64,000 nt of DNA from Centipeda infelix ATCC 43532. Its GTDB lineage: Bacteria; Bacillota; Negativicutes; Selenomonadales; Selenomonadaceae. Below, piece after piece: positions 8,004 through 62,309 of this stretch. The position numbers and the translations under genes are program-made. Every line of letters begins with the position of its first letter. Positions within the stretch are counted from its first letter, which is position 1. The stretch is taken from the NCBI RefSeq assembly GCF_000234095.1, contig NZ_JH376798.1:339424-403423 (forward strand), read 5' to 3'. Below the pieces are notes generated by a model. It did not search any database. It was not told the DNA's origin and worked only from the letters and a program-made list of their open reading frames with translations.

Positions 8004-8034
8004 TGTTTGCGGGGAATGTGGGGGCGTTTCTGCT

Positions 8035-8197
8035 TGCGTACTCCTCGCAGAACCCTCGTTACGCAAGTGGTCGGGCTCTTATCTGCCTAAATACCTGCGG
8101 ATTCCAAACGCGCTTCGCTTGAACGGTTAAAATCCGCAGGGGGCAGAACGAGCCCTTTCCTCCGCTTGCTCCACTAGGGTTTGCTACGGAGCACGCA
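8035..8197. repeat. nested palindromic repeat R3, copy 1
   Basis: A 163-bp element that is almost wholly self-complementary. The outer arms are TGCGTACTCC.../...GGAGCACGCA. Inside them lie AACCCTCGTTACGCAAG/CTTGCTCCACTAGGGTT, then GGGCTC/GAGCCC, then CCTGCGGATT/AATCCGCAGG around CGCGCTTCGCTTGAACG. Homologous copies occur at 44777-44948 and 48551-48726. The sequence from 7961 to 8346 (between gyrA and the glycosyltransferase gene) holds only the gyrA promoter and this element; the last 150 bases show nothing recognisable apart from the next gene's ribosome site. Confidence 0.8.
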
Positions 8198-8346
8198 TAG
8201 CGGCATATCCATCCGTCCGCATCATTTAGGCTTACGCGAGGAGTTCGCATGGCTGCATTGCCATTCCCCATACATTAGCTGCACGCATAGCACGCTAAAA
8301 GGGATTTTGTATCTCATCGTCGAATAAAGCGGATGGAGGTGGACGC

Positions 8347-18521: not shown

Positions 18522-18595
18522 TTGAACTTTATCTATCATTGTCGTATCATGTGATTGAAACATCCTGGGCAGGAGGAATCCTGCGGCGATACAAG
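18522..18595 (+). repeat. second copy of the toxin promoter and leader
   Basis: TTGAAC (18522-18527), 17 bases, TATCAT (18545-18550), then about 45 bases nearly identical to 17-60, including the hairpin GCAGGA-GGAA-TCCTGC. The stem is kept while the loop changes from GCAA to GGAA, still GNRA. Similarity stops at about 18592, with no peptide frame. Any transcript would run rightward, antisense to the 3' end of the threonine aldolase gene. Confidence 0.65.
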
Positions 18596-20799: not shown

Positions 20800-23700
20800 T
20801 TAGAATCTCCAGTCAAAACCTGCCTTGAAGGTAACACCGCGCTGCTTGCCTGCCCAGCCCTCGACGCTGAGGTCGGCAGTGGCGTTTTTGCTGAGCGGGG
20901 CTTTCCAGCCGAGCTCGAGGCTCGCGGAGAGACCCTTGAGCGAGGGGCTCGGGGTATCGTAGGAGAAGCCGCCCGTGTGGTAAGTTGCACCTGCGTCCCC
21001 CTTGAATTCATACTGAAGGGAAGTGCCGAGGATGAGTGCGCCGCTCCCCTTCGGGATCGTCCAGCGTGCGCCCGTGCGCAGGCGGTGGCTGTCGACGGCG
21101 TGGAAGTCATAGCGGTCGCCGGTCGAGAGGGTTGCGCTCGCACCGTTCTGATGCGTATAGAAGTAGCGCAGATAGAGCTCGCGCTCCGTTCCGTTTGCCG
21201 CCTTTGCCGTATGTCCGAGACCGAGATGTGCACCGACATAGTTCGCGTCCGTATCATAGGACGCACGGCGTGTGATCCCGCCGACAGGAAGGTCTGCCTC
21301 GTAGTCTGTGCTCATGCGGCCAAGGCGCAGACTGCCTTCGTAGAATATGCCGTCCTTTTTCTCCTGCTTGAGGAAGACGCCGCCGCCGACGTAGTGGGTA
21401 TTCCCTTCGCCGTGCGTGCCGTCATCGAGATAGGAGTCGTAGCTGCCGCGTCCGTACTCGACGATGGGACCGAAGAGGATGCGGTCATCGCCGCGCATGA
21501 CCTCACGTGAGAAGCCAACGGCAAGATTCATGCCTCGGACATTCACATGAGAGCCGGTTTCATGGCGCAGACTCGATCCGCCGACGGCAGCAAAGGGGGC
21601 GAATCCACTCGCTCCCGCTGCTTCTGCTGAGGCGCTCGTCATGCCGCCGCCTGCGATGAGGTCGCCGCTCGCACCGAGGAACGCGGCAGTACCGGTCATG
21701 GTCTCAGCAAGGGACTTCGTGTTCTCATGCAGGACGAAGCCGTTATTGCCCGGATTGGGATTTGGGTTCGGATTCGGGTTCGGGTTGGGATTTGGGTTCG
21801 GATTCGGATTCGGGTTGGGGTTGGGATTTGGATTCGGGTTCGGATTCGGGTTTGGATTTGGATTTGGGTTCGGGTTGGGATTTGGATTCGGGTTTGGGTT
21901 TGGGTTGGGATTTGGATTCGGGTTTGGGTTTGGGTTGGGATTTGGATTCGGGTTCGGGTTTGGGTTCGGGTTGGGATTCGGGGGGGTATTCCCGTCGATC
22001 GCACTGCCGTCGACCTTGACGACCAGCTCCTTCTTATCGTTCGTGACCCCCATCTTTGCCGTGCGATGCCCCGAGACGCCTTCGTAGACAGTCATGGTCG
22101 TCGCGCTGTCGGTCTCGATCTGCGCGTTCTCCGTGCGCAGGAGGCGCAGACGATTTGCCGTCGAACTGCCCGGCAGATATGCCGCGAGCGTTGTGCCGCT
22201 GAGGTTGGTATTGGCATTCGAGGTCACACGCAGCATCGTATCATTTACAGTCATGCCTGCAGGCACGTAGAATGCGAGTTTTTGAAAATCCCCAATGCTC
22301 TGCGCTGTGATGTTTTTCGTCTCACGCACGATGAGTGTGTTGTCCGCGCGCACTACACTTGCCGCTCTGGCATCGCCGCCGTACAGCTGCGCCCGCGTGA
22401 GATCGGGGGCGCCCGCGATCTCAACGATGTTGCCGCGCACGATTGCCGTCGTATGCGCAGCGGCATTCGTCCACGCACGCCCGCCGTAGATGGAACCCAT
22501 GTAGGTGCCGCCGCGCAGATACACCTCATTGCTCTCTGCTGTGGCAACTGCTGTGCCGCGCGTCGCCTGTGCGTAGCTGTCACCGCCGAAGATATCCTTT
22601 TCGAAGGTTCCGCCGTTCAGCGTGACGATATTCCCGCTCGCGACAGCCTGTGCCTCGGTGTCGAGCGCATTTGCATTTGCATTGCCGCCGCGGATCTCCT
22701 CCCATGGGGCACGCACGGGGCTGAGTGTGATGCGGTTCGCGTGTGCCGTCGCTGCGACCGTGCGCAGCTCACCCGATGCACCTGCATTTCCGCCCGTGAC
22801 ATCGCGTCCGTCGCTGTAGGTGCCCGCCGTGACGGTGACCGTGTTCTCCTGTGCCGTTGCGGCCGCGCCTCTCGTCGTACGCTGTGCGTAGGCAGCACCG
22901 CCGGTGAGATTGCCGATGATTGCACCCGACCCATTCTCGATCGTGATGCTGTTGCGCTTCGTGAGGGCGGTCGCCGCATTCGAGCGTGCATACGCCGTGC
23001 CGTTGCCCGCTGCCATGCCCGCCGTTACGCGAGTGCCTGTCAGCGTAATTTGATTGCCCTCGACGAGGGTCTCTGCCGTGCCGTACAGGGCATCGGCATA
23101 GGCCCTTCCCGCAAGCGCTCCATACATGAGCGTGCCGCCCGATGCCGTGATCTGATTGTCCGCGGCGTTGATGCGAACATTTCCCGCCCCGTTCGTCGTG
23201 AGCGAGGCGCGTGCGGCAGTCACGTTATTTGCCGTGCCGCCATTGTTGATGGTCACCGTATTCCTGTTCACCTCAGCGGCAAAGGACACAGCATCTAGTG
23301 CGCCGACCTGTTCAATGGACGCGCCGTTCAGATCGCCGTTTTGCGTGCCGTGCGTTCCGATCACGACGGCGTTCTCGTTCGCCGTGTAGGAGACGGCACC
23401 GCCGTGCGTACTCGTCACATGGATGCGTCCGCCAAAGACATGCGTGAGCGTGCCCTTGGTCAGCGTGATGCGGTTGCGGTCTGCTGCGAGCGTCGTTATG
23501 CCCGCTGTCGTCGCATTCGTCGCGCGCGTATAGATCATACTGCTGCCGCGAATGTCGGTCATGTTAAAGTCTCTGCTGTTCACCTCAATGGTATTGCCGC
23601 TCGTCGACGCCTCGCTGTCCCCGTTCGCATGGGTCAGATTGAGGTAACCGCCGTTCATCCGCCATGTCTGTATGTCATCTGTGATCGTCAGTTGATGATT

Positions 23701-44743: not shown

Positions 44744-44776
44744 GGTTAGATTTTAGGCATGAGTCGCTGAGAACGC

Positions 44777-44948
44777 CATGCGCACTCCACGCAAACGCTT
44801 AGTTACGCAAGCGGTCGGGCGCTTATCTGCATAAATACCTGCGGACTTCTTAAACGCGCTTCGCTTGAACGAAAGAAATCCGCAGGGGGGGCAGAACGTG
44901 CCCTTTTTTCCGCTTGCTCCACTAGGGTTTGCTTAGGAGCATCACATG
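44777..44948. repeat. nested palindromic repeat R3, copy 2
   Basis: 172 bp homologous to 8035-8197. The arm pair is GGGCGC/GTGCCC, paired through one G-U, and the outer arms CATGCGCACTCC / GGAGCATCACATG differ from the other copies but still pair. The 44744-45089 gap contains this element and the following promoter. Confidence 0.8.
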
Positions 44949-45003
44949 GCTTCGTTTCTTGTTTTCCGTAATATACGGATAAAGAGTCGTTCGTTTCGAC
45001 TCC

Positions 45004-48531: not shown

Positions 48532-48550
48532 GGACGGCATTTTTTACACA

Positions 48551-48726
48551 GGCTGTGGAGTATCCCCTTCGCAGAACCTCGTTACGCAATCGATCGGGTG
48601 CTTATCTGCCTAAATACCTGCGGATTCCAAACGCGCTTCGCTTGAACGGTTAAAATCCGCAGGGGGCAGAACGCACCCTTGTTTCCGCTTGCTCCACTAG
48701 GTTTGCTACAGGGGATCCCCACAGCC
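48551..48726. repeat. nested palindromic repeat R3, copy 3
   Basis: 176 bp homologous to copies 1 and 2. The arm pair is GGGTGC/GCACCC, a double compensatory change against GGGCTC/GAGCCC in copy 1. Outer arms GGCTGTGG ... CCACAGCC pair here but not in sequence with the other copies. The rest of the 48532-48862 gap shows nothing clear beyond the next ribosome site. Confidence 0.8.
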
Positions 48727-48862
48727 TATCATGTCAGAACGGTCAACTTTTTCTGTATTGATGCAGGGAGTTCAATGTGTTGGGCAGCACGGCACAACAA
48801 TTTCATCCAACAGGCTGGTGAGGATTGCCTCATCAGCTTTTCTCTCAGAAGGAAACATTTCT

Positions 48863-52223: not shown

Positions 52224-52577
52224 GGAAGCACGGATAAATTCAGCGCCATCATCTTGACGCATCTTTTTACCTGCCCCTTGTCATTATGTCCGCGGTATCG
52301 CTACAAGCGCCCCTTCCACCGCTCGTGCGGCCCCCTCCCCCGTGTCAAGCGGGCAACGTCATCCAATCACACTCCGCTTACGCTTGTGTTCTTGGGCGGT
52401 TTTCCCATACGACCTGTTACCCGCTCAGCTGCCCCCTTCGGGCTTGTTTCTCGGACAGGTCAGTAAGTGGCGAGCGCAGCGAGTCGATAGGGGCGCTTGT
52501 GCAACAGTCCCTTGTCTCCTTGTTCGGGCAAAAATCTACGCCAATCCAGCGGACTTCATTTTATCAGCGATTCCTTA
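52221..52577. mobile_element. MITE-like element, copy C, with nested R2 repeat
   Basis: Left end TAAGGAAGCACGGATAAATT and right end TTTTATCAGCGATTCCTTA are inverted repeats. Copy A's blocks are present but split by an R2 element at 52303-52500, so this copy is 357 bp. It supplies the dnaB stop codon and ends directly against the third parS palindrome. Confidence 0.65.
52303..52500. repeat. GC-rich dyad repeat R2, copy 3, inserted in the MITE
   Basis: Perfect 11-bp inverted ends ACAAGCGCCCC/GGGGCGCTTGT bound about 200 bp of noncoding DNA. Since the MITE is interrupted, this repeat arrived later and can itself move. Confidence 0.6.
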
Positions 52578-56080: not shown

Positions 56081-56186
56081 GCGCCCCCACCGGCTCGCAG
56101 AGCTCGCCACCTCCCCCGTATCGACGGGGGAGGCTAATATGCCGTATCCAAAAGCCTGCCCCGCCACAGCGGTGGAAGGGGCACTT
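56081..56186. repeat. GC-rich dyad repeat R2, copy 4
   Basis: GCGCCCCCACCGG ... CTCCCCCGTATCGACGGGGGAG ... CCGCCACAGCGGTGGAAGGGGC. It has two inner hairpins and imperfect outer arms, directly after the DUF4446 gene. Confidence 0.6.
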
Positions 56187-56200
56187 CTGCCAATATCAAG

Positions 56201-62179: not shown

Positions 62180-62234
62180 TTCGGTATTGTCGATTGTCCA
62201 GTTTGCCGTGCCAATCTCGCCATGCAAGTAACAA

Positions 62235-62309
62235 GCGCCCCTTCCACCGCCTCGCGGTCCCCCTCCCCCGTCGCGACGGGGGAGGGGGACCGCGAGGCGG
62301 TGGGGGCGC
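62235..62309. repeat. GC-rich dyad repeat R2, copy 5 (near-perfect hairpin)
   Basis: About 36 of 37 pairs are possible around the centre GTCGCGAC, from GCGCCCC to GGGGCGC. It lies inside the hydrogenase operon between hyaC and the HMA-like gene, and could slow or partly stop transcription and so set the ratio of structural to accessory proteins. Confidence 0.75.

Follow-up and report, generated by a model that had tools for sequence, protein, structure and literature searches.

Three hairpin copies between genes

The DNA analysed here, hereafter called the window, is a stretch of 64,000 nt from Centipeda infelix ATCC 43532. Two diverging genes enclose a long bulged hairpin (copy 1), and two further copies of it lie between genes of the same direction (Table 1). 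A reading of the sequence alone had placed three nested palindromes that fold end to end at positions 8035–8197, 44777–44948 and 48551–48726, and bulged end-to-end hairpins were located at all three positions. Each has a core of ~150 nt and comprises 170–178 nt with its outer arms. The inner arms GGGCTC/GAGCCC, GGGCGC/GTGCCC and GGGTGC/GCACCC were verified. Folded as single-stranded DNA, copy 1 reaches −44.2 kcal/mol, compared to −24.1 kcal/mol (sd 3.3) for shuffled sequences (z −6.1; 0 of 200 shuffles as stable).

Table 1. Positions of the hairpin copies and their parts in the window
Feature	Position	Strand	Remarks
Copy 1, whole bulged hairpin with outer arms	8032..8201	+	flanked by gyrA-like gene (−) and family-41 glycosyltransferase gene (+)
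Copy 1, core, covariance-model match	8043-8193	+	L001:1514-1664
Copy 1, outer left arm GCTTGCGTACTCC	8032..8044	+	pairs with 8188-8201
Copy 1, outer right arm GGAGCACGCATAGC	8188..8201	+	partner of 8032..8044
Copy 1, covarying inner arm GGGCTC	8073..8078	+	pairs with 8150-8155
Copy 1, covarying inner arm GAGCCC	8150..8155	+	partner of 8073..8078
Copy 1, tip AAACGCGCTTCGCTTGAACG	8106..8125	+	
Copy 2, whole hairpin	44775..44950	+	after MutS domain V gene (+), before DUF2232 gene (+)
Copy 2, core, covariance-model match	44787-44941	+	L008:1509-1663
Copy 2, tip	44852..44871	+	
Copy 3, whole hairpin	48550..48727	+	after ribosomal protein L9 gene (+), before Lon-type ATPase/protease gene (+)
Copy 3, core, covariance-model match	48566-48716	+	L005:1498-1648
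Copy 3, tip	48629..48648	+	

Other features of the window include a molybdenum/tungsten cofactor riboswitch (Rfam RF01055; 58062–58229; 48.1 bits), a repeat array with 12- and 18-nt steps within open reading frames on both strands (21722–22009), and a 47-nt repeat, 94% identical, at 14–60 and 18545–18591. Another palindromic repeat (ACAAGCGCCCCTTCCACCGC...) is found at 52303–52343, 62231–62271, 56161–56195 (reverse) and 62244–62303, the last being a perfect 30-bp inverted pair; similar GGGGAGG hairpins are found close to copies of the element in relatives.

Copies in the genome and covariation of the stems

A blast search with copy 1 gave 44 pieces in the 2.41-Mb genome, which correspond to 38 places after we joined six pieces of interrupted copies. 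The 28 uninterrupted copies align over 155 columns. Variability among the copies of this genome is highest at the hairpin ends and lowest at the tip, and the nearly constant parts are the internal loop AAATACC and the tip AAACGCGCTNCGCTTGAACG, from which L031 alone among the 28 copies deviates. A core CCTGCGG...CCGCAGG had also been proposed as constant; this holds among the three window copies only, and elsewhere CCGGCGG/CCGCCGG, CCGTCGG/CCGACGG, CCGACGG/CCGTCGG and other combinations are found. No autonomous version, in which a gene would separate the two halves, was seen in this genome; its four lone end pieces stand apart.

The claim that pairing is kept while the sequence changes was confirmed far beyond the level of shuffled alignments. 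For the 28 complete copies, a structure of 47 pairs, derived from the fold of one of them, is paired in 93.9% of the cells, compared to 85.2% in shuffles. The copies contain 119 two-sided changes (40.7 in shuffles) and 20 covarying pairs (12.3 in shuffles); none of 500 shuffles reached any of these three values. Sliding the partner by 1–3 columns lowered pairing to at most 49.2%, a control that is favourable to the structure chosen in this way. A second set comprises 99 matches, 87 of them distinct, that were collected from several genomes and aligned to the covariance model; it is paired in 95.3% of the cells and contains 380 two-sided cells (shuffled 110) and 30 covarying pairs (shuffled 13.4), again with 0 of 500 shuffles reaching these values.

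Distribution of the hairpin and its tip

The three copies belong to a family of hairpins dispersed between genes in oral relatives of Selenomonas. By covariance-model search, copies were detected in 12 of 14 genomes of the genus, including that of the window, and in 5 of 23 further genomes of the family, while the other two genus genomes and all 23 genomes of other families of the class gave no match. A closer search yielded 58 copies in G002, 45 in G005, 28 in G011, 26 in G001 and 18 in G012. The 20-nt tip is present in 27 of 300 genomes of the class, all within the window's family, and the reversed tip pattern had no match in the same 300 genomes.

Scanning the genomes of 84,980 species for the tip revealed at least 113 stretches. 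Among the matches listed are records of Mitsuokella, S. ruminantium, Lachnospiraceae, Eubacterium, Blautia and Bacteroidales, many of them metagenome-assembled genomes (MAGs) that are possibly misbinned. In records of Mitsuokella, S. ruminantium, Lachnospiraceae and Bacteroidales, the tip AAACGCGCTNCGCTTGAACG sits on top of hairpins whose arms are unrelated. Of 108 full contexts of the matches listed, own-family copies included, 97 have 40 or more cross-pairs within arms of 75 nt below the tip, compared to 3 of 199 random windows; of the remaining eleven contexts, ten have 0–29 cross-pairs and one has 30–39. Some low-pairing matches (Christensenellaceae, Woykebacteria, Diapherotrites) look like chance. 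The arms of the Lachnospiraceae-type and S. ruminantium-type hairpins are quite unlike those of the window's type, and they covary as well: with structures predicted from their own alignments and sets chosen by a sequence motif, 154 two-sided cells were counted for the former (n = 15, after dropping 2 of 17; shuffled 45) and 182 for the latter (n = 20, after dropping 10 of 30, mostly near-duplicates; shuffled 51), with 0 of 500 shuffles in both cases.

Searches with copy 1 at E 1e-5 gave no match among 50,697 phage and 72,556 plasmid records, and the exact tip is absent from the viral contigs of IMG/VR. In the openly accessible literature searched, the element is unnamed and the exact tip strings do not occur. 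In two rabbit-gut Clostridia MAG loci (L105, L153), the tip stands inside a different, forked hairpin.

Outer arms and exchange between copies

The outermost arms had been described as complementary within a copy and different between copies, and this was borne out: own left and right arms score 9.50 and swapped ones 5.59 (28 copies; 0 of 20,000 permutations). When the score is restricted to the outermost part, the values are 5.36 and 4.20 (0 of 20,000), with the own partner best or tied best in only 6 of the 28 copies. These arms are excluded from the covariance model. They are preserved at a given site across species (L021/L069; L042 set) and unlike between paralogs, and so mark each insertion like a tag. 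A possible origin of the outer arms as copies of the flank of another copy was examined by counting shared 11-mers: 11 matches were obtained for 27 copies of the window's genome and none for eight copies of G002, which is no clear excess over a rough expectation of ~5; the 66 matches in G005 come largely from a subset with ISL3-like flanks described below.

Seven same-site comparisons within one element contain 12 one-sided differences and one two-sided difference, whereas five between unlike elements, also at shared sites, contain 19 one-sided and 44 two-sided differences (38 of the 44 still paired); this grouping follows total divergence, and four of the seven same-element comparisons share L042. 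Two copies in G005 (L210 and L223) are identical over the inner 125 nt and have quite different outer arms, and in L053 the top helix is swapped on both sides relative to four orthologs; the inner part can thus be exchanged between copies. Such paired replacement of inner modules, with the rest of the copy unaltered, also suggests gene conversion between copies.

Filled and empty insertion sites

The comparison of filled and empty sites started from 145 elements detected by a regular expression, and the 40 highest-ranking filled/empty pairs were examined. A pair was excluded if its flanks had diverged strongly, if it showed long gaps, or if it contained masked bases or ISL3-like ends; five sites were used. 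At the first one (L044 of G012), an element with identical ends is present in G012, G001, G002, G010 and G006, and the flanks meet without a gap in the window's genome (L375) and in G005 (L374). The insertion adds 181 nt (179 in G006), both outer arms included. At four further pairs (L279/L175, L016/L288, L220/L387 and L264/L127; flanks 89–95% identical), 186, 187, 208 and 226 nt are added. A target duplication of more than ~3 nt was not visible at any of the five sites. These alignments show the units to be mobile; they insert between genes as pieces of ~180 nt that carry both outer arms.

Complementary arms could also arise by quasipalindrome correction, in which template switching during replication copies one arm onto the other and complementarity results without selection. 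The copy-specific outer arms and the scarcity of intermediates at pairs with several Watson–Crick types are in line with this process. However, it would erase bulges and loops, which are constant; at the L044 site both arms were brought in by the insert and neither is a copy of the flank (judged by eye); and one-sided changes distinguish same-site copies of one element. We therefore regard this explanation as unlikely.

Arms unique to each copy would likewise be obtained if the element inserted into pre-existing palindromes. In one comparison (L365 of G002, filled; L394 of the relative G005), G005 retains a 31-nt palindrome with both outer arms and without the inner part. We read this remnant as a probable internal deletion, but it could be the original palindrome; a remnant consisting of the arms only is also found at the L023 site in G002. 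The five other empty sites have no palindrome beyond chance, the longest inverted repeats across the empty junctions being 3–6 nt (random junctions: median 5, 95th percentile 7), and this origin of the outer arms is very improbable.

Some copies contain additional modules. A second hairpin of ~115 nt with CCAATC...TTCTTGG loops is found in the 3′ arm of four copies of the window's genome (C1:63342-63615, C2:277021-277284, C2:283311-283582 and C2:415275-415559; L032, L033, L040); it is missing from the G011 ortholog of the copy at C2:283 kb (flanks 95–97% identical), a like module occurs in a Veillonellaceae MAG (L147), and it looks like another mobile hairpin. In two copies of the same genome (C4:30445-30739 and C4:462096-462426; L035, L034), a miniature element with the ends GGAATCGCTGATAAA...TTTATCAGTGCTTCC is nested at TTAA.

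An ISL3-like carrier in one relative

In G005, recent near-identical copies are enclosed by the ends GGTTCTATGATAAATGTTACGGA ... TCCGTAACATATGACAAAGAGCC. An 8-bp duplication was found at 7 of 10 G005 loci for which both ISL3-like ends were called (five exact, two at 7 of 8 positions) and not at the other three. Ends beginning with GGCTCTTTGTCAA, which we take to be those of the ISL3 family, are present at 4 of 7 inspected ISL3 transposase loci; ISL3 transposase domains were detected in 6 of 14 genus genomes, including G005, and had no match in the genome of the window. A DDE element can thus carry the hairpin, as the ends and duplications of the G005 subset resemble those of ISL3 miniature transposons, but it serves as a carrier only, and most copies, including standalone ones, are not placed between such ends. 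That the hairpins are solely miniature transposons of an ordinary DDE transposase of the ISL3 type is hardly credible in view of these copies, of the missing transposase match in the window's genome and of the clean insertions elsewhere that lack such a duplication.

Orientation and strand

Replichores were assigned from GC-skew samples, which were clear in four genomes. Orientation with the leading strand was found for 32 of 38 copies in the window's genome, 36 of 58 in G002 (p 0.087), 16 of 26 in G001 (p 0.33) and 28 of 44 in G005, where one opposite-strand match of a palindrome had been dropped from the 45 copies; pooled, these are 112 of 166 (p 8e-6). After removal of the ISL3-flanked copies of G005, of which 8 of 16 are leading, 20 of 28 remain (p 0.036). 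The bias is thus strong only in the window's genome and individually significant also in G005 without ISL3-flanked copies. At 53 sites between tandem genes without ISL3 ends, 28 of 35 copies beside leading genes and 16 of 18 beside lagging genes are leading, with gene direction taken from a simple ORF heuristic and only the top-scoring loci used for G002 (8 of 58) and G001 (7 of 26). Since 16 of 18 copies are leading even beside lagging gene pairs, it is replication, more than transcription, that sets the direction of the element.

The covarying pairs of the window's type contain 43 G-T and 26 A-C cells, 25 of the 43 coming from one pair; the corresponding counts are 7 and 26 in the Lachnospiraceae type and 8 and 18 in the S. 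ruminantium type. A functional RNA of the + strand is expected to favour G-U. The missing preference for G-U among non-Watson–Crick cells would favour a function as DNA rather than as top-strand RNA, and an A-C excess would fit folding of the other strand.

These data bear on the explanation that the hairpin is a structured RNA, either a small RNA or a cis-regulatory element, which is selected at each site while an ordinary transposase spreads the copies. Covariation together with conserved internal loops and a conserved tip resembles structured RNA, five species carry nearly the same copy at the L042/L044 locus, and a G-U variant on the + strand is common at six pairs. On the other hand, orientation is independent of the genes, G-U is not favoured over A-C, same-site copies of the same element differ mainly on one side, and two genus genomes have no copies. 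The earlier statement that no known family matches was supported by Rfam: no family matches the hairpin at gathering score. With Rfam 15, the window and 19 tip-bearing loci gave only tRNA, Moco riboswitch, tmRNA and SAM riboswitch, and copy 1 alone, searched up to E 10, gave three matches, all under gathering score and at chance level. A structured RNA is therefore a rather doubtful explanation.

Comparison with known element classes

A link to REP-associated tyrosine transposases (RAYT) had been suggested. The corresponding Y1 domain (PF01797) is present in 7 of 14 genus genomes and absent from 7 of the 12 copy-bearing ones, namely G002 (58 copies), G005 (45), G011, G012, G008, G009 and G004; G013 has eight Y1 matches and zero copies, and the window's genome has one partial match. 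Y1 genes thus do not track the copies, and RAYT/Y1 was rejected as the mobiliser on this distribution. Intrinsic terminators of one gene family, the other alternative named at the outset, are not supported either, because a run TTTTT occurs within the last 26 nt of the downstream excerpt in only 1 of 28 copies and, of the 18 copies next to lagging gene pairs, 16 run antisense to both neighbours.

REPINs are described in the cited parts of the literature as REP doublets moved by RAYT/TnpA-REP, with compensatory changes across the hairpin, and a single-strand, lagging-strand route has been proposed there for Y1 enzymes (PMC3116915, PMC6006769). In comparison with these descriptions, the present elements are likewise short, non-autonomous, dispersed intergenic mobile hairpins with compensatory changes. 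However, two conserved, inverted REP sequences at the ends are not found; instead, tip and internal loops are constant, the size is ~150–180 nt, and Y1 does not track the copies. The bcr1 elements of the Bacillus cereus group, MITE-like and partly transcribed, and stem-loop repeat families dispersed between genes (PMC2267715, PMC3446304) are, as far as the cited sections describe them, similar in size, intergenic dispersal and common predicted stem-loop. In contrast to them, the stems here covary across genera, the tip is common to phyla, the outer arms are insertion-specific and the orientation is set by replication; in these sections the organisms studied here are apparently not covered.

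Insertion of IS200/IS605 elements makes no target duplication; at the five sites studied here, no duplication of more than ~3 nt is seen. The orientation bias is strong in one genome and weak in three. The cited part of the literature describes hairpin recognition, single-stranded DNA and use of the lagging-strand template for these elements (PMC6006769). Unlike them, the present hairpin has no coding region, and 7 of 12 copy-bearing genus genomes have no Y1 transposase. Integron attC sites, which are recombined as folded single strands, also conserve structure while their sequence varies. Their hallmarks are the core site GTTRRRY and the IntI integrase; no cassette arrays were seen here.

A probable mobile DNA hairpin

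The best explanation, to which we assign a probability of roughly 55%, is a dispersed, non-autonomous, REPIN-like mobile DNA hairpin; its movement probably takes place at replication forks and in single-stranded form. The folded unit would move in this form, and landed copies would then drift through one-sided changes. The single-strand step at the fork is inferred from orientation, the missing duplication and structure. In the earlier reading, covariation was ascribed either to selection on structure or to a copying mechanism; the filled and empty sites, the replication-set orientation and the absence of a G-U preference speak for a mobile DNA unit with a structure that is important for its movement. 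Against the mobile hairpin stand the weak orientation bias outside the window's genome, the G-T cells, which do not exceed A-C cells as folding of the + strand would predict, and the arms-only site L394, which can be read as a pre-existing palindrome. Neither a mobilising gene nor a transposition intermediate was found. The family is new in composition and REPIN-like in its working, yet it is not a REPIN member, since the defining enzyme was tested for and is not there.

A further-reaching proposal, which we hold as a tentative possibility, is a new structure-defined class of mobile DNA with free stems and a 20-nt tip common to Negativicutes, Lachnospiraceae and Bacteroidales. A widespread recombinase of neither the Y1 nor the DDE type would insert it at replication forks, and complementary outer arms would be newly made at each insertion.

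If the mobile-hairpin explanation is true, these copies would document hairpin mobility in nature many times over. Stems, tip and bulges could be told apart, so that the parts read by the enzyme could be deduced from alignments alone. Covariation among repeats would then not need to imply a functional RNA, and the tip would be a concrete sequence with which the mobilising enzyme could be sought in different phyla. A sharp question raised by the complementary arms of each insertion is how they are made.
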